A DNA stretch of 64,000 nt. Source: Acidobacteriaceae bacterium. Its GTDB lineage: Bacteria; Acidobacteriota; Terriglobia; Terriglobales; Acidobacteriaceae. The stretch covers positions 1 to 64,000 of the forward strand of contig JASHNS010000117.1 in NCBI GenBank assembly GCA_030041515.1. Direction: 5' to 3'. The notes under the pieces are model-generated. The model was not told the DNA's origin. It worked only from the letters and a program-made list of their open reading frames with translations, and did not search any database. Below, piece by piece: positions 51,011 to 59,454 of this stretch. A program made the translations under genes and the position numbers. Each line of letters begins with the position of its first letter. Position 1 is the first letter of the stretch.

Positions 51011-51087
<77 letters not shown>

Positions 51088-51140
51088 CCTTAAAATCAGC
51101 TATTTAGAGTCGAAATGCAGAGCCGCATTTTCGACCGTTC

Positions 51141-51160
51141 TGTGACTTATTTGTGACTAC
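51141..51160 (+). promoter_or_regulatory. Putative integrase arm-type sites, left
   Basis: TGTGACTTA (51141) and TGTGACTAC (51152) are spaced 11 bp, about one helical turn, between attL and the integrase stop. A matching pair with the same spacing and orientation lies at 59259-59278. Confidence 0.5.
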
Positions 51161-51177
51161 GAATCGCGATTTTGCCC

Positions 51178-52320
51178 TTAGGACAGTTGCTTCGGTTCTG
51201 CGAAGACCGCATCAAGCCTGTTCATCGCAGCACTCAGATAGTCGGGACCGAGCCGCTGGTAGATTCTCGCAACACGCATGTCCCGGTGGCCCAGCACTTC
51301 GGCCACAGTGTGAGCATCGACGCCCTGCATACGCATCCATGATGCGGCCGTTCTGCGCAAATCGTGGAAGTGGATGTCAGCGATCTTGAGACGACGGGCC
51401 ACGGTAGCGAAGCCTTTGCTCACATTGTCAGGGCTGAAACCGGCAACCTGTGGGAAGACCAGATCGCCCGGCACCGCCTTCTCGGTCCACTGTGACTTGA
51501 GCACTTCTAGTGCCAGCGAGTTGAGATAGACGACGCGACTCTCGCCGTTTTTCGTCTGAGTGAGAAACAGGCGTTTCCCCGGCAGATCAATGTTGATCCA
51601 GCGCAGACCCAGAATCTCGCCACGTCTCATCCCGGTAAAGACGGCCAGACCGACAATGCCGCGCAGCCATGCAGGACACTCGTTTAGCACGGCCCGCACT
51701 TCGGTAGGCTGCAACACCCGCATTCGCCCATCGGCAGGTTTGCGTGGAGGCTTGACCCGCGATGCCGGGTTGAATGGCAGCAGGTTCCATTCGGTGACCA
51801 TCAGGTTGAGCATGTGCCGCAGGCAATTCAGTTCCTTGGCCACCGTCGCCGCGGACGCTTTCTCAGCCCGCTGGCTGGCGTATTGGCTGACGAGATCGCG
51901 GGTGATGTCCTTGATAGAGACCGCACCGAAGTACGGTTCAATGTGCAGATCGAGGATGTTGGTCATGCGGGCATAGCTCTCAGGACTGAGGCGAACCTTC
52001 TGGTGCTGGCGATAGCGGGCGAACACCGTCGAGAGCGCGTCCTTGGAGGCGTCTGCCTTGCCCGTGGCGCGGAGGGTCTTTGCACGTCGCCTGCGATACA
52101 TGACTTCCTCGACGGCGGCTGCGTAGTTCTCAGTCTGAAGATTCTGCCGTACCCGCTTCGACTTGCCACCCACCATCTCGGTCCACGATCCCCACCATTC
52201 CTTCGAGCCGGGGCGCTTGTACACGCCGTCCCGACGCCGCCGTTTTCGCTCTGGTTCAACAGGCCGTGCTCGCTGGATTGCTCGCTCGGGTGGAAGAATC
52301 TGCGGTTGCTTTTTCGTCAC
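51178..52320 (-). CDS. Tyrosine-type site-specific integrase
   Basis: A 380-aa phage-type integrase, transcribed toward the tRNA. A basic N terminus (arm-binding region, ERKRRRRDGVYKRP) precedes a SAM-like core-binding domain (about 95-190). The catalytic domain has Arg232 in FTGMRRGEILGLRW, Lys257 in TQTKNGESR, His319 and Arg322 in HDLRRTAASW, His345 in LGHRD and nucleophile Tyr354 in ARIYQRLG; the set is complete, so the enzyme should be active. GTG 52320 is chosen for its GGAGG seven bases upstream; ATG starts at 52347 and 52359 are in frame but lack such a site. It should act at the att repeats. Confidence 0.93.
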   Translation of the reverse strand: MTKKQPQILPPERAIQRARPVEPERKRRRRDGVYKRPGSKEWWGSWTEMVGGKSKRVRQNLQTENYAAAVEEVMYRRRRAKTLRATGKADASKDALSTVFARYRQHQKVRLSPESYARMTNILDLHIEPYFGAVSIKDITRDLVSQYASQRAEKASAATVAKELNCLRHMLNLMVTEWNLLPFNPASRVKPPRKPADGRMRVLQPTEVRAVLNECPAWLRGIVGLAVFTGMRRGEILGLRWINIDLPGKRLFLTQTKNGESRVVYLNSLALEVLKSQWTEKAVPGDLVFPQVAGFSPDNVSKGFATVARRLKIADIHFHDLRRTAASWMRMQGVDAHTVAEVLGHRDMRVARIYQRLGPDYLSAAMNRLDAVFAEPKQLS

Positions 52321-52691
52321 AGCCTCGCCTCCATTCTCATGTAACATGCTTAAATACAACTACTTACATTATAAACCAAAGCTGCAATAACGAGCCGATG
52401 TGCAACCTATTGTAAACGCTAGGCTTGCGGCTTTCGTTTGCCACGCCTTGCGTGTGCTATGATCGGAGCTACCTCTAGGATACGGGCGAGGCCCCGGTCA
52501 GGAATTCGTGATCGGAATACCACCCGAAGTCGGGGATAAAGGGCAGCGCGAAGCCGAAGCGGGTGAGGACTCGCAGCAATTTCGGCCCCTGAATGTATCT
52601 AGCGCCGCCTCGCCATCGGGATACTCAAGGGTCTCGACGGTTGAACCCGCGCCGCTACTTCAAAGGCGGACACCATCCTTGAGGTGCCGCC
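52321..52691. other. Divergent control region between int and the element's rightward genes
   Basis: These 371 bases lie between two divergent transcripts. An extended -10 (TGC-TATGAT, 52455-52463) can drive the rightward genes, leaving a leader of over 200 bases. AT-rich DNA at about 52340-52400 probably holds the integrase promoter. A 71-codon GTG frame from 52508 overlaps the next gene's start and looks like chance. Confidence 0.5.
52455..52463 (+). promoter_or_regulatory. Extended -10 promoter element (rightward)
   Basis: TGC followed by TATGAT matches the extended -10 consensus (TGn-TATAAT) at five of six box positions. The -35 region is weak (TTTGCC at suboptimal spacing). It would start the transcript of the AlpA-like and primase genes. 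Confidence 0.4.
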
Positions 52692-53081
52692 TTGAGCGTG
52701 CAATCAGTTCCCTCTCCTGCTGACATTCGAATTGCCACCGCTGCCGACGCCGTTCGCGGCCAGCACACCCGCCTGCTCTATCCCGTGCAGGAAGCCGCGC
52801 AATTGCTCGGCGTGAGCGCATGGACGCTGCGGCAGATGTATTACGACTGCCGAATCATGGGCCACAAGTTCGCTAACCGGCTGCTGATTCCCGCCGCCGA
52901 GATCGACCGCATCATCAAGACTTCGGAAACCCCATACGCCCCATCCTCAGTCGGCATCGGCGCAATCGCTGGTCGGCTCTCCCGTCTGCGTGCCGCCGCA
53001 CGCCGAAAGCAGGGGGCCGCGTCACGCAAACCCGCCGCTTCCACATCCGGCAAGAGAGTGAGAACAGCGCGGGCCTCATGA
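52692..53081 (+). CDS. AlpA/excisionase-like helix-turn-helix protein
   Basis: A 129-aa DNA-binding protein. RLLYPVQEAAQLLGVSAWTLRQMYYDCRIMGHKFANRLLIPAAEIDRII (about 27-76) is a MerR-type winged HTH as in excisionases and AlpA. The tail (about 92-129) is very basic (RLSRLRAAARRKQGAASRKP). Its position between int and the primase is where P4-type and PICI-type elements carry AlpA/Xis. It may regulate int or excision. TTG start at 52692 after GAGGTG. Its stop overlaps an ATG at 53078 (ATGA). Confidence 0.75.
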   Translation: MSVQSVPSPADIRIATAADAVRGQHTRLLYPVQEAAQLLGVSAWTLRQMYYDCRIMGHKFANRLLIPAAEIDRIIKTSETPYAPSSVGIGAIAGRLSRLRAAARRKQGAASRKPAASTSGKRVRTARAS

Positions 53082-53120
53082 CAATCCTTTCAGCACCCGA
53101 CAACGCAGACCAAATGAAAA

Positions 53121-53143
53121 GGCCGCGTCTCGCGGACGCGGCC
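53121..53143 (+). promoter_or_regulatory. Leader hairpin before the primase gene
   Basis: GGCCGCGTC (53121-53129) and GACGCGGCC (53135-53143) form a perfect 9-bp GC stem with a 5-base loop, preceded by AAAA. It stands between the HTH gene stop and the AGGGGA site of the primase. It may attenuate, stabilise or process the transcript. Confidence 0.55.
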
Positions 53144-53170
53144 CTCAGCCAAGCTGAAAAGGGGAACGGT

Positions 53171-55285
53171 ATGAGTAATGATAACGCGAAGCCAGATGCA
53201 CGGGCGCAGAGAAAAAAGACGTTGCCGGTAAAGGCCAGATCATCCGGCCCCCGGCTCGTCACCGAGGAGCCGCGCCCATGGTACGAAAAATTCCGCATTC
53301 CGGCAGAGTTGATCTTCGAAGCCCAGGTGCTGCACATCGATGACAGGCGGGCGCGCAGGGAATATGAACTGAAGGCTCCGAAGCTGTGGAATCTCAGCGG
53401 CACGGTGTTTTCTTACTTTCATCGCGAGACTGGAACTCGTGTCTATAATCGCGTGCGCCGCGATCACTTCACGGGCGAAGGTGAAGACAGGAAGTACATC
53501 GGCAACAGCGCGAAGCAAAAGCAGTTCGAACGCATTCTCTACAGTGCTCCCGGCGCTTCGGAGCGTCTGAAACGAAAGCGCACCACACGCATTCTGGTGG
53601 AGGCCGAGAAGTCTGTGCTGGCTATCGAGGCGTGGGCGCGCCGAGCCGAGCGCACGGACATCGTGCCGCTGGGCATGGGCGGCTGCAACGGCTGGCGTGA
53701 CAGGCAGCACGGAGTTCTGCCCGACCTGAACTGCTGTAACGGGTCGCCCGTTGTCATAATGCTGGATGCCAACGTGCGCACCAATAAGGACGTGCATGAG
53801 GCTGAGCTTGCACTGATCGCTGAGTTGCGTTCACGCGGCTGCACGGTCACAGTAGCCCGGCTTCCGCAGGAAAAAGGCGTCAACGGTCCCGACGATCTGC
53901 TGGCGCAGCCGGACGGCGATACCCTCTTCGCCGAAGTGCTCAGGGCGGCGAAGGGCACGGCGGTCGCACCCTACAGCGAGCACGCGCTGGCCGAGCGCTT
54001 TGCCACCGAGCACAAGGCCGACGCAATCTATGTTCCCAACATCGGCTGGCATGTGTGGGATGGTGAGCGCTGGCGGCCGGACGATCAGGGAAAAGTCGAA
54101 CTGCTATGCCAGCAGCTTTGCGGCACTGCTGCCAGCGAGCGCGCCAAGCTCACCGAGCAACAGAGACTCCGAAGCCGTCGCACCCGCGAAGCGATCATGC
54201 GAGAGGCGCAGGGACAACTGGTTGTCACAAATGACCTGCTGGACAAAGATGTGATGCTACTCAACACTTCGGGCGGTACGGTGAACCTGCACACGGGCGA
54301 CCTGCGTCCAGCCCGCCGCGAAGACTACTGCACCAAGCTCGCCGGGGCCACCCCGGACAAAGAGAACAAGCCCGAGCGCTGGCTGCAATTCATCGACGAG
54401 ATCACGGCGGGCGATAAGGCTCTGGGAACCTACCTTCAGCGGATCGCGGGCCTTTGCCTGACAGGCGACGTGAGCATGCAGGAGGTGTACTTTCTCCACG
54501 GCACCGGGGCCAATGGCAAGAGCGTCTTTGTATCGACGTTGCTCAGCATTCTCGGCGACTACGGCAGAACGACACCGGCTGAAACGCTCATGGTGACGTA
54601 CCACCCGCAGCACGCAACTTCCATCGCAGCTTTGCGTGGTGCGCGGCTTGTCGCGATCTCCGAGGTAGAAGACGGAAGCCGCTGGGCCGAGTCGAAGCTG
54701 AAAGAGCTTACAGGCGGCACACCAATCACCGCGAGATTCATGCGCATGGATGAGTTCACCTTCATGCCGCAGTTCAAGCTGGTGATCACCGGCAACCACA
54801 AGCCACGGCTTCGCAACGTTGACCAGGCAGCGGAACGTCGCCTGAGACTGGTGCCATTCACTGTGCAGATACCGAAGGCCAAGAGAGATCGTGATCTGAG
54901 AAAGAAGCTGGAGCCTGAATACGGCGGAATTCTTCAGTGGGCAATCGAGGGTTGTCTCGACTGGCAGCGCCAAGGGCTGGGTACCCCGGACTCGGTGCTC
55001 AGCGCTTCGGCTGAGTATCTGGCAGCGCAGGACGTTCTGGGCACATGGCTCAACGAGCAGACGACCAAGAAACGGTCGCTCAGGGAGCAGTCTTCCGTCC
55101 TGTATCAGAAGTACAACAGGTGGTGCGAAGACGCTGGCGAGTACGTCATAACGCAGCGCGAGTTCACCGACAAAATGAAAACCGAGAAAGGCTTTAAGAC
55201 CAGAAAAATCCATGGCACGATGTCGTTCCTCGGGATCGGGCTGAAGGCGCAACCCAAGTTCGCGCGCAGGAGTGAAACAGCGTGA
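53171..55285 (+). CDS. P4-type primase-helicase (D5-like, SF3)
   Basis: A 704-aa replication protein. Residues about 110-270 contain a TOPRIM-like primase region (TRILVEAEKSVLAIEAW, PVVIMLDANVRTNKDV, EKGVNGPDDLLAQ). A D5-N-like linker follows, then a superfamily 3 helicase with Walker A GTGANGKS (444-451), VAISEVEDGSRWAESKLKELTGG (Walker B region) and FKLVITGNHKPRL (motif C). Such fusions replicate phage satellites and plasmids autonomously. ATG 53171 is preferred because AAGGGGA lies upstream and a GC hairpin precedes it; ATG 53078, overlapping the HTH stop, is in frame and would add 31 residues through the hairpin. Confidence 0.92.
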   Translation: MSNDNAKPDARAQRKKTLPVKARSSGPRLVTEEPRPWYEKFRIPAELIFEAQVLHIDDRRARREYELKAPKLWNLSGTVFSYFHRETGTRVYNRVRRDHFTGEGEDRKYIGNSAKQKQFERILYSAPGASERLKRKRTTRILVEAEKSVLAIEAWARRAERTDIVPLGMGGCNGWRDRQHGVLPDLNCCNGSPVVIMLDANVRTNKDVHEAELALIAELRSRGCTVTVARLPQEKGVNGPDDLLAQPDGDTLFAEVLRAAKGTAVAPYSEHALAERFATEHKADAIYVPNIGWHVWDGERWRPDDQGKVELLCQQLCGTAASERAKLTEQQRLRSRRTREAIMREAQGQLVVTNDLLDKDVMLLNTSGGTVNLHTGDLRPARREDYCTKLAGATPDKENKPERWLQFIDEITAGDKALGTYLQRIAGLCLTGDVSMQEVYFLHGTGANGKSVFVSTLLSILGDYGRTTPAETLMVTYHPQHATSIAALRGARLVAISEVEDGSRWAESKLKELTGGTPITARFMRMDEFTFMPQFKLVITGNHKPRLRNVDQAAERRLRLVPFTVQIPKAKRDRDLRKKLEPEYGGILQWAIEGCLDWQRQGLGTPDSVLSASAEYLAAQDVLGTWLNEQTTKKRSLREQSSVLYQKYNRWCEDAGEYVITQREFTDKMKTEKGFKTRKIHGTMSFLGIGLKAQPKFARRSETA

Positions 55286-55366
55286 TCATCCTCCCCACAA
55301 ATGTTAGGGCCACAAGTGCGCCGCACCCGCATGAACACTGGCTGCTTTCGCCTCTCGGGTGGGAAA

Positions 55367-55477
55367 TTGGGGGAGGATGGGGAGGATGCCCCATAAAAGC
55401 GCTAAGCGTTGGTTTTCCTCGGCGAGGAAAGTCGTTTCTTAGGGTAGTTACGGAACACCCTCCCCATCCTCCCCCAA
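55367..55477. other. Large nested palindrome, candidate replication origin
   Basis: Three perfect inverted repeats share one centre (55422): outer 19-bp arms TTGGGGGAGGATGGGGAGG (55367-55385) and its complement (55459-55477), middle CTAAG/CTTAG (55402-55406, 55438-55442) and inner TTTCCTCG/CGAGGAAA (55414-55421, 55423-55430). Each outer arm contains two tandem 9-mers related to GGGAGGATG, so four iteron-like copies point in opposite directions. It lies about 80 bases after the primase gene, where a cognate origin is often found. A large RNA hairpin or protein-binding site is the alternative. Confidence 0.6.
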
Positions 55478-55544
55478 AACACACCAAATCGGGCACGATT
55501 CGTGAAGTGAAGCCGCTGGTTGTCAGCGGCAAATGAGGAAAGCA

Positions 55545-56243
55545 ATGGCGACAAAGAAGAAGAAGAGCGACGCACCAGAAAAGAAGAAACGCAAACCGAA
55601 TAGCGGAAGTTTCTCTAAAGACCGCCCCAATCCGACTGCCTTTCAGCCGGGTGCGCCCAGCCCGAATCCGGGCGGCAAGCCCCGCGAGTACCTTGCTTTG
55701 GCGCGTGCTCTTCGCGCTGGTGGCGCAGGTCGCGCACCCGATAGGGAATGCGAGGCGATGGGCCTGCCACGTGGCAGCAGCAAGCTGGAAGTCGCTGCCG
55801 AGAGAATTCTGATCTCAATGCGGCGAGGCGTGTACCCCGAGCACTTAGAGGCTGCGGAATTGTTTTCCAAACTGACGGGCGAATACGCCCACAAGCTGGA
55901 ACTCGGCCTCGATCTGGAAGCAATGGAGGAAGGCGGTGGTCTCGGCCCGCGGTTGATCGTCCAGTTCACCGAGAGCGAGCACGACAAATTGAAACGCGAA
56001 GCGGAGGAGCATGCTTCAGGCAGGTTGATCGATCATGCATCGCCGCCGCGTGCTTCTGATCCCAGCGCCGAGGCTGCACGGCAGGAAGCTGTCAGCGCTG
56101 CATCGCCCGGTGGGGCAGAGGTACTGCCGCCTCCGACTGCAACGAAGGTGTGGCCACGGCTGGCAGCACCAGCGCCCGAGCCTCGCCCCGAATCCGCCCA
56201 GCAAACGCGAGAGCGCATTTACCAGAAGCTCTACCGCAGCTAG
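55545..56243 (+). CDS. DUF5681 domain protein, possible packaging factor
   Basis: A 232-aa protein. After a Lys-rich start (ATKKKKSDAPEKKKRKP), TAFQPGAPSPNPGGKPREY (about 34-52) is the DUF5681 signature (FQPG-x3-NPGG-P). A helical region LEVAAERILISMRRGVYPEHLEAAELFSKLTGEYAHKLELGLDLE follows. The last 80 residues are Pro/Ala/Glu-rich. DUF5681 proteins occur in phages and islands, often near terminases, and a small-terminase-like DNA-recognition role is a guess from that context. AGGAAA supports ATG 55545; 55533 is an in-frame alternative. Confidence 0.75.
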   Translation: MATKKKKSDAPEKKKRKPNSGSFSKDRPNPTAFQPGAPSPNPGGKPREYLALARALRAGGAGRAPDRECEAMGLPRGSSKLEVAAERILISMRRGVYPEHLEAAELFSKLTGEYAHKLELGLDLEAMEEGGGLGPRLIVQFTESEHDKLKREAEEHASGRLIDHASPPRASDPSAEAARQEAVSAASPGGAEVLPPPTATKVWPRLAAPAPEPRPESAQQTRERIYQKLYRS

Positions 56244-56371
56244 GCGACAAACTGTCATTCGCCCAGCCTTCGGGGCGCTGAGACGGGGCGCAGGGCCACC
56301 AAACGCCCAAAGATGTGACCACGGGGCGCTGGGCGCGATTGTCAGGCAGGGTGTAGCCCAGCCGTACAGCG

Positions 56372-56399
56372 CCAGCCTGACAGAAAAACGTCAGGCTGG
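56372..56399 (+). terminator. Hairpin after the DUF5681 gene
   Basis: CCAGCCTGAC (56372-56381) and GTCAGGCTGG (56390-56399) form a perfect 10-bp stem with loop AGAAAAAC. GGTTTGGTCTTTCTT follows at a short distance. It probably ends the primase/DUF5681 transcript before the resolvase promoter. Confidence 0.6.
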
Positions 56400-56417
56400 G
56401 CTAGGGTTTGGTCTTTC

Positions 56418-56458
56418 TTGACACTCCGCCTGTCAGGGTCATAGACTTAAATCTGACA
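56418..56458 (+). promoter_or_regulatory. Resolvase promoter with overlapping dyad
   Basis: TTGACA (56418-56423) and TAGACT (56442-56447) are spaced 18 bp. TGTCAG (56431-56436) and CTGACA (56453-56458) form an inverted repeat centred on the -10 box. Serine resolvases commonly bind such dyads in their own promoter, so this may be a res subsite and autoregulatory operator. Confidence 0.6.
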
Positions 56459-56478
56459 CTCTGAAAGGCGGTTTGGCT

Positions 56479-57069
56479 ATGACACCAGCAAGGCGAGACG
56501 GCAAGCGGGTTGGCTACGTTCGCGTCTCCACCATCGACCAGAACACCGAGCGACAGTTGGAAGGCATCAAGCTCGATAAAAAATTCACCGACCATGCTTC
56601 GGGGAAAGACACGAAGCGCCCACAGCTACAGGCAGCATTCGAATATCTCCGCGAAGGCGACGTGCTCGTCGTGCATTCGATGGATCGACTAGCGCGCAAC
56701 CTTGATGATCTGCGAAAGATCGTTCGCGATCTGACAGCCAGAGGAGCCGTGGTGGAGTTCGTGAAAGAGCACCTGACCTTCACCAGCGCCGAATCACCGA
56801 TGAACAAGCTGCTCCTCAGCGTCATGGGCGCATTCGCAGAGTTCGAACGTGCACTGGTCCGTGAACGGCAGCGCGAGGGAATTGCCATCGCGAAGAAAAA
56901 AGGCATGTACCGGGGACGTAAACGTTCGCTCTCCCCCGACAAGGCCGCCGAATTGCGCCGACGCGCAACGGCTGGTGAGAAGAAGGCCGCGTTGGCTCGC
57001 GAGTTCGGCATCTCCCGCGAGACGTTGTACCAGTACTTGAAAACGAAACATGCGGTTTCGCCGCGATGA
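56479..57069 (+). CDS. Serine recombinase (resolvase/invertase family)
   Basis: A 196-aa small serine recombinase. Ser17 in GYVRVSTIDQN is the nucleophile; VHSMDRLARNLDDL carries the conserved Arg residues; FAEFERALVRERQREGIAIAKKKG is the long E helix; KAALAREFGISRETLYQYLK is the C-terminal HTH. Length matches Tn3-type resolvases and DNA invertases. In a replicating element it could resolve multimers. ATG 56479 follows AAGGCGG; TTG 56473 is an alternative. It has its own promoter. Confidence 0.92.
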   Translation: MTPARRDGKRVGYVRVSTIDQNTERQLEGIKLDKKFTDHASGKDTKRPQLQAAFEYLREGDVLVVHSMDRLARNLDDLRKIVRDLTARGAVVEFVKEHLTFTSAESPMNKLLLSVMGAFAEFERALVRERQREGIAIAKKKGMYRGRKRSLSPDKAAELRRRATAGEKKAALAREFGISRETLYQYLKTKHAVSPR

Positions 57070-57139
57070 AGCTACCCCCGGTACGGTGCAGAAAATAATT
57101 TCGCGTCCCGCCTAACATCCAAGTGCCTGCGTGACCGGG

Positions 57140-57161
57140 ACTTACGCACTCAAACGTAAGT
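57140..57161. repeat. Inverted repeat 3' of the resolvase gene
   Basis: ACTTACG (57140-57146) and CGTAAGT (57155-57161) are perfect 7-bp arms around CACTCAAA. It may be a second protein-binding site in the control region of the next gene. Confidence 0.45.
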
Positions 57162-57187
57162 GCGTCTGCGTGGGCGCTAACTTCCGC

Positions 57188-57206
57188 TTGACACGTCGCA
57201 CGTGTC
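57188..57206 (+). promoter_or_regulatory. Palindromic operator on a -35 box
   Basis: GACACGT-CGC-ACGTGTC (57190-57206) is a perfect palindrome overlapping a consensus TTGACA (57188-57193). It precedes the small DNA-binding protein gene, making autoregulation likely. A -10 is not evident in the GC-rich sequence downstream. Confidence 0.5.
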
Positions 57207-57225
57207 GGGTGATCCTGGCCTCAGT

Positions 57226-57471
57226 ATGAGGAAGTCGAACAGCACCGCGTCCGCGTCAAGCGATCTCTCGGTAAAGCAGCATGTGCCGTACCTGATCCGC
57301 TCAGGACGTGCATCGCGCATCGCGGAACTGAGCACGCAGCACCTGCACCGCCTTGCCAGCAGCGGAAAGCTCAGTTTCATCCAGATCGATGGTGTCAGAT
57401 TTTTCCATCGTGAAGAGATCGAGCAGTTAGCCCGCACGCGCCGGGAGAGGAGCGTGTCTCATGCGCATTAA
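57226..57471 (+). CDS. Small excisionase/MerR-like DNA-binding protein
   Basis: An 81-aa protein. VPYLIRSGRASRIAELSTQHLHRLASSGKLSFIQIDGVRFFHREEIEQLARTRRE resembles an excisionase-type winged HTH: a recognition helix (STQHLHRLASSGKL) and a wing with R-F-F-H-REEIE. The C terminus is basic. A palindrome overlaps its promoter. It is the first of a chain of overlapping small genes. ATG 57226 is the simplest start; GTG 57202 lies inside the palindrome's edge. Confidence 0.65.
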   Translation: MRKSNSTASASSDLSVKQHVPYLIRSGRASRIAELSTQHLHRLASSGKLSFIQIDGVRFFHREEIEQLARTRRERSVSHAH

Positions 57472-57670
57472 TACAGCAGCAGCCTTGAACGTTCTCCATC
57501 GTCAGCACTATGCCGCACTGCGGGCGCTGGAGCTACGACGGCTGGGCCTCGACGATGGCCCCTCCGTTCGCACTGCCGACGCCACGCCCGAGTTCTATGC
57601 GGGCACCTTCCGTATCAGCGGCCCACACATCACCAGACTTCCCGACAGCGAGGCAACACACCATGGCTGA
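57461..57670 (+). CDS. Hypothetical protein (69 aa) of the mobile element
   Basis: Begins MRINTAAALNVLHRQHYAALRALELRRLGLDDG, an amphipathic helical start, followed by a shorter beta-like tail (FYAGTFRISGPHITRLP). No known domain. Its ATG overlaps the preceding gene by 11 bases, and its own stop overlaps the next ATG, so it is probably translationally coupled. Confidence 0.55.
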   Translation: MRINTAAALNVLHRQHYAALRALELRRLGLDDGPSVRTADATPEFYAGTFRISGPHITRLPDSEATHHG

Positions 57671-57854
57671 TCCCGCAGGTTACAACCGCAGCACCGATCC
57701 GTCGCAGGTGCCCGTCAACACGGCGAGCACGAAGCTGCCCGAGCACATCGCTCCGGGCCGTTCGACGGGCGTGGCCGTCATGGGCAGCGAAGTTCCAGCG
57801 CCTGCGTACCCGGCGAGCTATCCAGAGAGTGCAACAAGAGGAGATGCCGAATGA
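57663..57854 (+). CDS. Hypothetical protein (63 aa) of the mobile element
   Basis: Begins MADPAGYNRSTDPSQVPVNTASTKLPEH; rich in Pro, Ser, Thr and Ala and probably disordered. It overlaps both neighbours by a few bases (ATG inside the previous gene; stop inside the next start at 57851). No family recognised. Confidence 0.5.
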   Translation: MADPAGYNRSTDPSQVPVNTASTKLPEHIAPGRSTGVAVMGSEVPAPAYPASYPESATRGDAE

Positions 57855-58375
57855 ACGCCGCAACCGAAGTACAGCGTGCACAGGACGCTCTCGCTGCCGC
57901 GCAGAGGCGCCAGAAGGACGAGCGCCACGCCGCTCTTGTCGCCCAACTTCAGGACACCACGACCCGATTGGAGGAGCAGCGGGCCGAGTATGCGGGACTA
58001 CGCGAACGGGTTTTGCAGCTACGTGCCCGCCGCAGGAAACTACAGGACGCTTTGACCGTGCTGCTCGGCGAAGAAGCGGAGCACTCGGCAAGCAAACCGC
58101 GAATCGCAGATCACGTGCCAAGTGCTCCGTCCGTAATCGCGTGGAACAAGGCAGGCGAGCGGCTGGCGTCCCAGCGCGCCGCAATCTCACAACAGCTTGC
58201 GGAGACGCAGATCGTCCATCAAATGGACGTGGACCTTGCTAGGCTGACCGTTGAGATCGAGCGGCTGCAACATGCGGAGGCGAATCTGCTGAACGCGCTT
58301 GAGTCGATGAAGCCGCAGCCTTTTTTGGCTGCGATTTCCGAGCCACCAATGGGCGGCATTGGAGTTCCGCGATGA
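57851..58375 (+). CDS. Coiled-coil hypothetical protein (174 aa)
   Basis: Begins MNAATEVQRAQDALAAAQRRQKDERH. Residues about 5-75 and 95-160 form long heptad-rich helices (QLQDTTTRLEEQRAEYAGLRERVLQLRARRRKL; ISQQLAETQIVHQMDVDLARLTVEIERLQHAEANLLNALE), so an elongated coiled coil is expected. No enzymatic motif or TM segment. It starts with a 4-base overlap (ATGA) on the 63-aa gene, and its stop also overlaps an ATG. A scaffold or phage-interference role is possible but unsupported. Confidence 0.7.
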   Translation: MNAATEVQRAQDALAAAQRRQKDERHAALVAQLQDTTTRLEEQRAEYAGLRERVLQLRARRRKLQDALTVLLGEEAEHSASKPRIADHVPSAPSVIAWNKAGERLASQRAAISQQLAETQIVHQMDVDLARLTVEIERLQHAEANLLNALESMKPQPFLAAISEPPMGGIGVPR

Positions 58376-58382
58376 TCGAGGG

Positions 58383-58838
58383 ATGGGCGGTGATCGAGCA
58401 TCGCCCCACGCGGGACCGAGCGGTTCCGCTTCGCACGGCCAGCGTTCTGTTCCTTCGCGCTGGCCGCGCCGGTTCAAAAGGATGGCGGTGCCGGTTGTCA
58501 CCGCCCCAGCCCGGGTGATGCCGGGTTTCGCGCGGCCAGCGCAGGACGGTCTCACGCTGGCCGCGCCGGTTTCTGAAAGATCGAGGCAGCCCCATGCGGG
58601 CCGCTTCGATGGCGCGGGCCTCGCCTACGTCCCGCGTGCGGTAAACGCGGCCCCGGAAGCCGTCGCGGGCACGCCGGGGCCGTGGCAAGTTTCCAAAGAT
58701 GGTGCGGGATGCGCCCCGCACCGGGCGCAGGCAGCGGTTTTGAGACCTCCTCTCGGCTGCACCTGCAACCCACCGCCAGCGTCCGGGGTGTTCGGCAGTT
58801 CATCCCGGCGCTGGTCTCGGTCACACAGGAGCCAGTGA
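58383..58838 (+). CDS. Uncertain reading frame (about 151 aa)
   Basis: A frame from ATG 58383 (or TTG 58359) to a TGA whose last base is the A of the next gene's ATG (TGATG at 58836-58840), a sign of coupling. The protein is Pro/Arg/Ala-rich (MAVPVVTAPARVMPGFARPAQDGLTL) and resembles nothing known. A competing 48-codon frame starts at ATG 58372, overlapping the previous stop, and ends at 58518. Only one of them can be the main product; repeats in this DNA further reduce confidence. Confidence 0.3.
   Translation: MGGDRASPHAGPSGSASHGQRSVPSRWPRRFKRMAVPVVTAPARVMPGFARPAQDGLTLAAPVSERSRQPHAGRFDGAGLAYVPRAVNAAPEAVAGTPGPWQVSKDGAGCAPHRAQAAVLRPPLGCTCNPPPASGVFGSSSRRWSRSHRSQ
58437..58571. repeat. Repeated inverted-repeat unit (GGCCAGCG/CGCTGGCC)
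   Basis: Two hairpin-forming units: GGCCAGCG (58437-58444) with CGCTGGCC (58458-58465), and CGCGGCCAGCG (58531-58541) with CGCTGGCCGCG (58555-58565). The right arms belong to a 17-bp direct repeat, CGCTGGCCGCGCCGGTT at 58458 and 58555. It lies in DNA with poor coding signal, so a structural or binding function is plausible. Confidence 0.6.
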
Positions 58839-59158
58839 TGAAGACCAGACCATCGAAGGAGCAGCGCGAACGGCACGCGGCGCTGATCGATTTTGGCAAC
58901 TCAATCGAAACCCCGTTCACGGACCTGCGCATCTACCCCGGCCAGTCACCGGAGATGGTGCGGTTTCTGACGGTCACGGCGATTCGCCGTCGCCTGCGTA
59001 TGTTTGCGCGCGCTGGCCTGCTCCCCAAATGGGGTACCCCGGAGCGGCGGGTTTACGCGAAGCTGGAAGAAGCCCTCAGAGACGAGAGCATCAGCCTGCA
59101 TCCGGTTGTGCGCGATGAACGCAACGCTAGGCGCATGATGGATGTAGGGATGGTCTGA
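58838..59158 (+). CDS. Hypothetical protein (106 aa) at the right end of the mobile element
   Basis: Begins MKTRPSKEQRERHAALIDFGNSIETPFTDLRIYPGQSPEMVRFLTVTAIRRRLRMFARAGLLPKWGTPERRVYAKLEEALRDE. It is mostly helical and basic, with no known domain; a small nucleic-acid- or protein-binding factor is likely. AGGA lies eight bases upstream, and a TGATG overlap joins it to the preceding uncertain frame. It is the last gene before attR. Confidence 0.65.
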   Translation: MKTRPSKEQRERHAALIDFGNSIETPFTDLRIYPGQSPEMVRFLTVTAIRRRLRMFARAGLLPKWGTPERRVYAKLEEALRDESISLHPVVRDERNARRMMDVGMV

Positions 59159-59258
59159 TTCTGAAGCCGCCTGGCAGGCTGGCCACTTCGCGAACTGGAT
59201 CACGTCCGAGAACTTGTCAGCCGCGGTCTTCAGGCCTTCGCGTACCAGATTGGCGTAC

Positions 59259-59278
59259 TGTGCCTAAATTGTGACTAA
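59259..59278 (+). promoter_or_regulatory. Putative integrase arm-type sites, right
   Basis: TGTGCCTAA (59259) and TGTGACTAA (59270) are 11 bp apart, mirroring the pair at 51141/51152 in motif, spacing and orientation. They lie about 130 bases inside attR. Confidence 0.5.
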
Positions 59279-59409
59279 GAACCCTCTGAACCCACCCAAA
59301 CCGCCCCAAAGGCACAACAGAGCGAATCGCCACGGAAGCCGCGCCATTGCTGCTGAAAACCAACTTTTCAACAGGTCAGCCAAGGGCACCACAGATGCCC
59401 CATTTGGCA

Positions 59410-59454
59410 CTCTCAAGGCGGAGAGTTCGGGTTCGATCCCCGATGGCGCTACCA
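59410..59454 (+). repeat. attR: 45-bp copy of the tRNA-Glu 3' end
   Basis: Identical to 51043-51087 and ends with the CCA. The 5' half of a tRNA is absent here, so it is an attachment-site remnant, not a gene. Confidence 0.95.

Follow-up and report, generated by a model that had tools for sequence, protein, structure and literature searches.

The segment at 55367-55477 is a 111-bp imperfect palindrome that carries two opposed sets of short repeats (iterons) just after the gene of a P4-family primase-helicase. We read it as a cis-acting replication site, most likely the initiator-binding origin of an 8.4-kb element of the P4/SaPI/PICI kind, and put the probability of this reading at about 0.83. 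An origin of replication was also what the first-pass annotation had suggested for this place, and it is the best-supported of the readings considered here because related primase genes carry the same architecture, with different sequences, at the same place, because the crr site of phage P4 has a similar anatomy and the published PICI/SaPI and pRN1 sites occupy the same place, and because a winged helix of the P4 origin-binding type is predicted at the C-terminus of the primase. The window, below, is the whole 64-kb stretch of DNA that was analysed.

The palindrome and its iterons within the element

The element is delimited by a perfect 45-bp direct repeat at tRNA-Glu (gene 51011-51087): attL (51043-51087, + strand) is the 3' end of the tRNA gene and attR (59410-59454, + strand) is a copy of that end. 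Between them lie an integrase, two small HTH/excisionase-like ORFs, the P4-family primase-helicase, a resolvase and further ORFs to which no function could be assigned. Judging by the proteins that flank the element, the host genome looks acidobacterial. The tyrosine integrase (51178-52359, - strand) matches Pfam Phage_integrase (E 9.9e-30) and the PHROG integrase family (E 6.6e-70), and a small HTH_17/excisionase-like protein (52692-53081, + strand) matches the PHROG family excisionase and regulator (E 2.5e-5) and, below the curated cut-off, NCBIfam excise (E 3.6e-5). The primase-helicase, the proposed initiator (53078-55285, + strand), is 735 residues long, scores 293.7 bits with TIGR01613 (cut-off 108.7), matches D5_N (E 4.5e-29) and also carries DUF5906. 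The order integrase, HTH_17/excisionase-like ORF, primase and array, together with the att-like repeats at tRNA-Glu, fits the PICI-type layout int-xis/AlpA-like-pri-rep-ori, and this integrative element is possibly a phage satellite. Part of its resolvase gene (window positions 56701-57029) has a 73% identical counterpart in a genome of the same genus (L191, G232:C128).

The palindrome starts 82 nt past the primase stop, in keeping with the earlier placement just after this gene. Its two 55-nt arms (55367-55421 and 55423-55477) are separated by 1 nt, and 41 of the 55 positions pair (75%). The first-pass annotation had described three nested inverted repeats of 19, 5 and 8 bp sharing one centre at 55422, and both the sequence and a repeat finder confirm this arrangement: the outer 19 bp are perfect (55367-55385 / 55459-55477), and the middle 5 bp (CTAAG) and the inner 8 bp (TTTCCTCG / CGAGGAAA) are centred identically, the latter forming a central 17-nt palindrome, TTTCCTCG-g-CGAGGAAA, at 55414-55430. 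That such symmetry is improbable by chance was borne out as well, the palindrome scoring 27, as against 18 for the next best in the 64-kb window; when the whole window was shuffled 20 times with dinucleotides preserved, the highest score was 17.

As had also been claimed, each outer arm holds two 9-mers. The iteron GGGGAGGATG stands on the + strand at 55370 and 55379 (the tandem pair spanning 55370-55388) and on the - strand at 55465, next to the near-copy GGGGAGGGTG at 55456 (- strand, one mismatch; the pair spanning 55456-55474), so that two + and two - copies form opposed sets with a spacing of 9 bp within each. These four arm copies stand, and a fifth had been overlooked: an outlying GGGGAGGATG on the - strand at 55287-55296, immediately 3' of the primase stop and outside 55367-55477, which could serve in autoregulation or as an extra site. 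As a 10-mer, GGGGAGGATG has four exact copies in the 64-kb window, all within 188 bp (55287-55474), and apart from the five copies there is no iteron match of at least 8/9 within 51043-59454. The inner segment between the iteron pairs (55389-55455), the proposed unwinding region, is only mildly A+T-rich (G+C 0.49 vs 0.60 for the whole element).

A repeat or transposon family was rejected: no second copy of the segment was found in its own genome (no match below E 0.26 except its own reverse complement), no DNA match to the segment was found in phages, and none to the whole element in plasmids.

One alternative for this symmetry is an RNA structure of the primase transcript, either a large hairpin, as the first-pass annotation had suggested, or a terminator. 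The predicted RNA fold of 55340-55500 is indeed very stable (-80.6 kcal/mol, z -6.4, equalled by 0 of 200 shuffles). At the segment, however, all Rfam matches fall below their gathering scores (E 0.86-2.5), and in the arrays found after related primases (see below) mismatches between the arms show no preference for G-T over A-C (68 vs 71, p 0.87, in 46 arrays; 89 vs 116 in 63 viral arrays). RNA pairing is not apparently selected, since G-T mismatches, which would be G-U in RNA, do not exceed A-C mismatches. The RNA reading was rejected on the mismatch test and the lack of any Rfam family above its gathering score, and we hold it to be extremely improbable.

The primase-helicase and its predicted winged helix

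AlphaFold modelled residues 296-735 with high confidence (pLDDT 94.4). In a fold search with this whole helicase model, large viral primase-helicases dominate and rank ahead of the SaPI5 primase-helicase 7ola, which appears at rank 48 with a TM of 0.68 by query length; SaPI5 Rep (7ola) was found by sequence as well as by fold. Modelled alone, the C-terminal 120 residues (pLDDT 89.9) match the fold of the RFX DNA-binding domain (Z 10.7) and that of 1ka8, the origin-binding domain of P4 (Z 8.6, with 77 residues superposed at rmsd 2.8), and a sequence profile of 44 relatives also matches RFX (E 0.0024). The P4 and RFX domains are treated as one winged-helix family in the relevant passage of PMC10516667. 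On the modelled structure, the C-terminus of the primase is predicted to be a P4-type origin-binding winged helix.

Across loci, primases with more similar winged helices share more of their iterons. Once the AAA part is controlled for, the partial correlation is small, at 0.09, a value reached by 12 of 500 permutations and lower than that of the AAA part itself (0.22); this version of the comparison is confounded by relatedness. Simple covariation of iteron and winged helix was tried twice and was unsupported, and the winged helices of two other primases with the same iteron rank only 66 and 89 of 149 in closeness to that of the window.

Arrays downstream of related primase genes

We compared the surroundings of primase stops in two sets of related genes. 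The first holds 74 distinct primase genes with a complete stop, the window's own included: 65 from genomes that share the host's family, order or phylum, 1 from an IMG/VR contig, 4 from plasmids and 4 from phages. They remained from 95 after stop-less ORFs, ORFs short of profile position 380, two copies of the window (L001 and L002) and duplicates by the last 120 residues had been dropped. The second, viral set was drawn from IMG/VR as the best 80 of at least 563 relatives, found among the first 600 stretches listed, and came to 74 once three loci with less than 300 nt downstream and three duplicates were removed. A homologue search for P0001 gave none in genome contigs and one in viral contigs. 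The scored region spanned 80 nt ahead of the primase stop and 320 nt beyond it, 400 nt in all, with a palindrome threshold of at least 14; controls were other windows of the same loci (624 in the first set, 904 in the viral set). Since palindromes occur more often downstream of genes, other-ORF stops served as a stricter control (271 and 713).

A palindrome of at least 14 was present at the primase stop in 46 of the 74 first-set loci, as against 15/624 control windows and 20/271 stops of other ORFs, and one of at least 20 in 25/74 (controls 1/624). The viral set (best 80 of at least 563 relatives, filtered to 74) gave 63/74 at the same threshold (control windows 18/904, other-ORF stops 20/713) and 43/74 at a score of at least 18 (0/904). 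That set comes mostly from one primase lineage (the largest of 62 clusters over both sets has 76 of 148 members) and therefore represents far fewer independent cases. When loci are clustered at 70% AAA identity, half or more of the members carry the signal in 42 of 62 clusters, and in 38 of 56 when only the host's phylum is counted.

The signal is not universal. No palindrome of at least 14 was found at the stop in 28/74 first-set loci and in 11/74 of the viral set (best 80 of at least 563, filtered), and 23/74 first-set loci have neither a palindrome nor opposed repeats. Among the 31 signal-less loci of both sets with a measurable gap, the next ORF starts at or before the primase stop in 16, whose origins, if any, would therefore lie elsewhere; the median gap from primase to next ORF is 0 without and 47 with signal. 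A Thermaerobacter plasmid (L103) has no array after its P4-family primase and a score-27 palindrome elsewhere in the stretch, which is perhaps its origin.

The spacing of repeats also sets the primase stops apart. Among 6-mer repeats a lag of 9 dominates, with 3.55 pairs per window vs 0.32 in the first set and 2.81 vs 0.38 in the viral set (best 80 of at least 563 relatives, filtered to 74), and at least one such repeat occurs in 42/74 first-set windows vs 109/624 controls. A lone lag-9 repeat is common and not diagnostic, being found at 56/271 and 167/713 stops of other ORFs vs 42/74 and 55/74 primase stops in the two sets, and plain counts of direct and inverted 7-mers separate arrays from controls poorly. 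The clearer measure was opposed tandem 5-mers, a test that makes no demand of symmetry: at a lag of 8-10 they occur in 34/74 first-set loci vs 4/624 controls and 7/271 other-ORF stops, at other lags in 1/74 (5-7) and 4/74 (11-13), and at a lag of 8-10 in the viral set (best 80 of at least 563 relatives, filtered to 74) in 36/74 vs 3/904.

The repeat sequences themselves vary from element to element. Conservation of the arms in related elements had been named in the first-pass annotation as a test of the origin reading, and the outcome was divided: arm sequence is not conserved, and the arrangement is, at the same place after the primase. This is what would be expected if each initiator read its own iteron. 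An exact search of IMG/VR for the window's iteron pair returned four contigs, one of which (L194) has a large opposed array with the same pair starting 35 nt after a D5_N primase stop; the stretches of the other three hold no D5_N primase. The exact iteron search of genome contigs returned at least 117 stretches; among the 117 matches listed, one has a D5_N primase (L263, Myxococcales), with the same iterons inside a 3' extension of the primase ORF. Tandem repeats of GGGGAGGAT recur in filamentous cyanobacteria (L196-L275, for example Laspinema, Okeania and Oscillatoria), which make up many of the 80 titles listed, and no D5_N primase was found in those stretches among the matches listed.

The arrays also bear on whether the site belongs to the gene that follows it. 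The next ORF after the window's array (55533-56243) matches DUF5681 weakly (E 0.04, below cut-off), and a packaging site (pac/cos) or another site of this downstream gene could account for the segment. In the viral set, where 61 arrays precede just 6 ORF families, a link of array to primase and one of array to next ORF are inseparable. In the first set, however, 45 arrays precede 41 different next-ORF families, and the arrays go with the primase. Packaging, which had been listed beside the origin as an alternative, is disfavoured by this diversity, and we consider it very improbable.

Within the arrays, we compared positions that vary within an arm, using only loci with equal spacing in both arms (30 and 34). 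Matches in mirror register exceed those in cross register, at 85 vs 51 of 160 cells in the 30 first-set loci and 121 vs 67 of 210 cells in the 34 viral loci. This excess counts against a pure iteron model, because independent iterons alone do not predict it; it may reflect conservation of spacers, the flank of the outer copy differing in kind from the spacer of the inner one, and a DNA stem or a complex with two-fold symmetry may play a part. Mean G+C falls from 0.55 to 0.39 at the centre over 46 first-set arrays, and the viral set shows no dip at the exact centre (0.675). An alternating purine-pyrimidine (Z-DNA-prone) run of at least 10 nt lies at the centre of 60/63 viral-set arrays (controls 236/3499), within L110-L189, and of 14/46 first-set arrays (controls 92/1710), for example L023, L047, L050, L053, L055, L074, L096, L105 and L106; the window's own array lacks such a run, its longest alternating run being 4.

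Known replication sites, a proposed mechanism and the shared layout

The deposited sequence of phage P4 places the start of crr 46 nt beyond the alpha stop and annotates the type-1 repeats of crr (GGTGAACA) as two opposed sets, one spaced at 9 bp and the other at 18. It resembles the segment studied here in having short opposed repeats just after the primase-helicase gene, which encodes an initiator with what the model predicts to be the same winged-helix fold. It differs in that P4 carries a pair of 120-bp repeats along with an origin at another site, whose own repeats are spaced at 10-11 bp, not 9, in the iteron (GGTGAACA vs GGGGAGGATG here) and in the palindrome, which scores 14 by the measure that gives 27 here. 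The P4 example raises the alternative that the segment is an accessory site of the crr type, needed in cis without being the start point, or else an operator for copy number or autoregulation: the P4 array beside alpha is annotated as crr, and the origin is a different site carrying the same repeats. Against this, the present element has a single array, with the iteron absent elsewhere between the att repeats as described above, and, in the experiments reported in PMC6092414, deleting the ori 3' of rep from a PICI reduced plasmid maintenance. We regard an accessory or operator role as quite unlikely.

The same paper places the SaPI/PICI origin in the region immediately 3' of pri-rep, with two iteron sets (PMC6092414). 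The initiators of SaPI5 and SCCmec (Cch2) are assigned to the Primase_Cterm/D5_N class in PMC7581432, which also describes how the C-terminal domain of Cch2 binds direct repeats that lie past the end of its operon. The window's site is like those of SaPIs and PICIs in its two iteron sets 3' of the primase gene, in the D5_N class of the initiator and in the presence of 7ola among the matches. It is unlike them in that its middle is only mildly A+T-rich, in that no helper phage is known, and in its gene content, since the PICI genes rpr/stl, terS and capsid were not identified among the 10 proteins scanned, which gave one weak DUF5681 match.

The third comparison is with the archaeal (Sulfolobus) plasmids pRN1 and pRN2, which have an inverted repeat of about 100 bp 54 nt after a gene annotated as 'phage/plasmid primase, P4 family'. 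According to PMC4234260, the pRN1 site, a stem-loop of about 100 bp located 54 bp after the rep gene, is both necessary in cis and sufficient, beside the replication operon; there, with one change in the stem, replication was seen only once symmetry had been restored. The authors describe the site as without iteron structure (PMC4234260). By our inspection, the pRN1 stem holds TGTCCA twice and the pRN2 stem GGAC twice, each at 9 bp, so that the likeness to the window extends to 9-bp tandem repeats in the stem; the differences are the archaeal host, a perfect 21-bp stem with a 58-nt loop and the iterons, which the authors say are lacking.

From these plasmids comes the alternative of a pRN1-type stem-loop origin, whose initiator would recognise an extruded DNA cruciform or hairpin and not duplex iterons; for pRN1, a rolling-circle variant has been argued. 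The pRN1 cis requirement and symmetry restoration (PMC4234260), the mirror-register excess of our survey, the nested inner palindromes of the window, and the size and place of its site all fit this idea. A stem does not, however, predict the 9-bp tandem repeats within each arm, which favour duplex sites and which the pRN1 and pRN2 stems themselves contain. Further, four loci (L032, L037, L094 and L104) combine opposed tandem iterons with a palindrome score of less than 14, and for SCCmec deletion of the direct repeats abolished Cch2 binding whereas deletion of the inverted repeats did not (PMC7581432). We consider recognition of an extruded stem unlikely. Bordetella phages BPP-1 and BIP-1, named in PMC4234260 as having the stem-loop, show in our scoring a weak palindrome (13) only, no clear tandem repeats and no such array, which counts against a general rule.

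Taking the segment as an initiator-binding origin, we infer its binding, loading and initiation by analogy with P4, SaPI and pRN1. Once the element is excised, primase-helicase subunits would bind the iterons through the C-terminal winged helix, and the two opposed iteron sets would load two hexamers facing each other. The hexamers would then open the A+T-richer inner segment, the primase domain would prime, and the host polymerase would copy the circle both ways. By our own reckoning, a 9-bp step amounts to about 309 degrees of helix turn, that is about -51 degrees, which would be near the 60-degree step of a hexamer, and successive iterons may be met by successive hexamer subunits.

This kind of site is already known. 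What may be new is that P4-family primases share a 9-bp opposed layout, and that this layout connects iteron origins with stem-loop origins; we found neither point stated in the open-access literature searched. We propose tentatively, at somewhat less than even odds, that many P4-family primase-helicases share one origin grammar, in which opposed iterons about 9 bp apart follow the initiator's own gene, are mirror-symmetric beyond their cores and often enclose a central alternating purine-pyrimidine tract, and that the iteron origins of P4, SaPIs and PICIs and the stem-loop origins of pRN plasmids are the same, the 9-bp step matching the hexamer subunit step. The comparison of about 150 related genes points to a common layout joining two models that had been described separately, with a similar arrangement downstream of primases at many chromosomal loci and in some plasmids and phages. 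Annotating the origins of integrated elements and satellites is difficult, since their sequences differ between elements; with a rule such as opposed 9-bp repeats just behind a P4-family primase, many of these origins could be found and each initiator would gain testable sites. The shared layout also allows the iteron and stem-loop models to be tested directly against each other.

Two further observations concern individual loci. The window's own genome carries a second P4-family primase (L101, G000:C36:11103-12299), which is followed by a different array of opposed iterons (TGTGTAG-type repeats, score 17). In two distant genomes of the phylum (L061 and L062), perfect inverted arms of 38 and 49 nt follow the P4-family primase stops.
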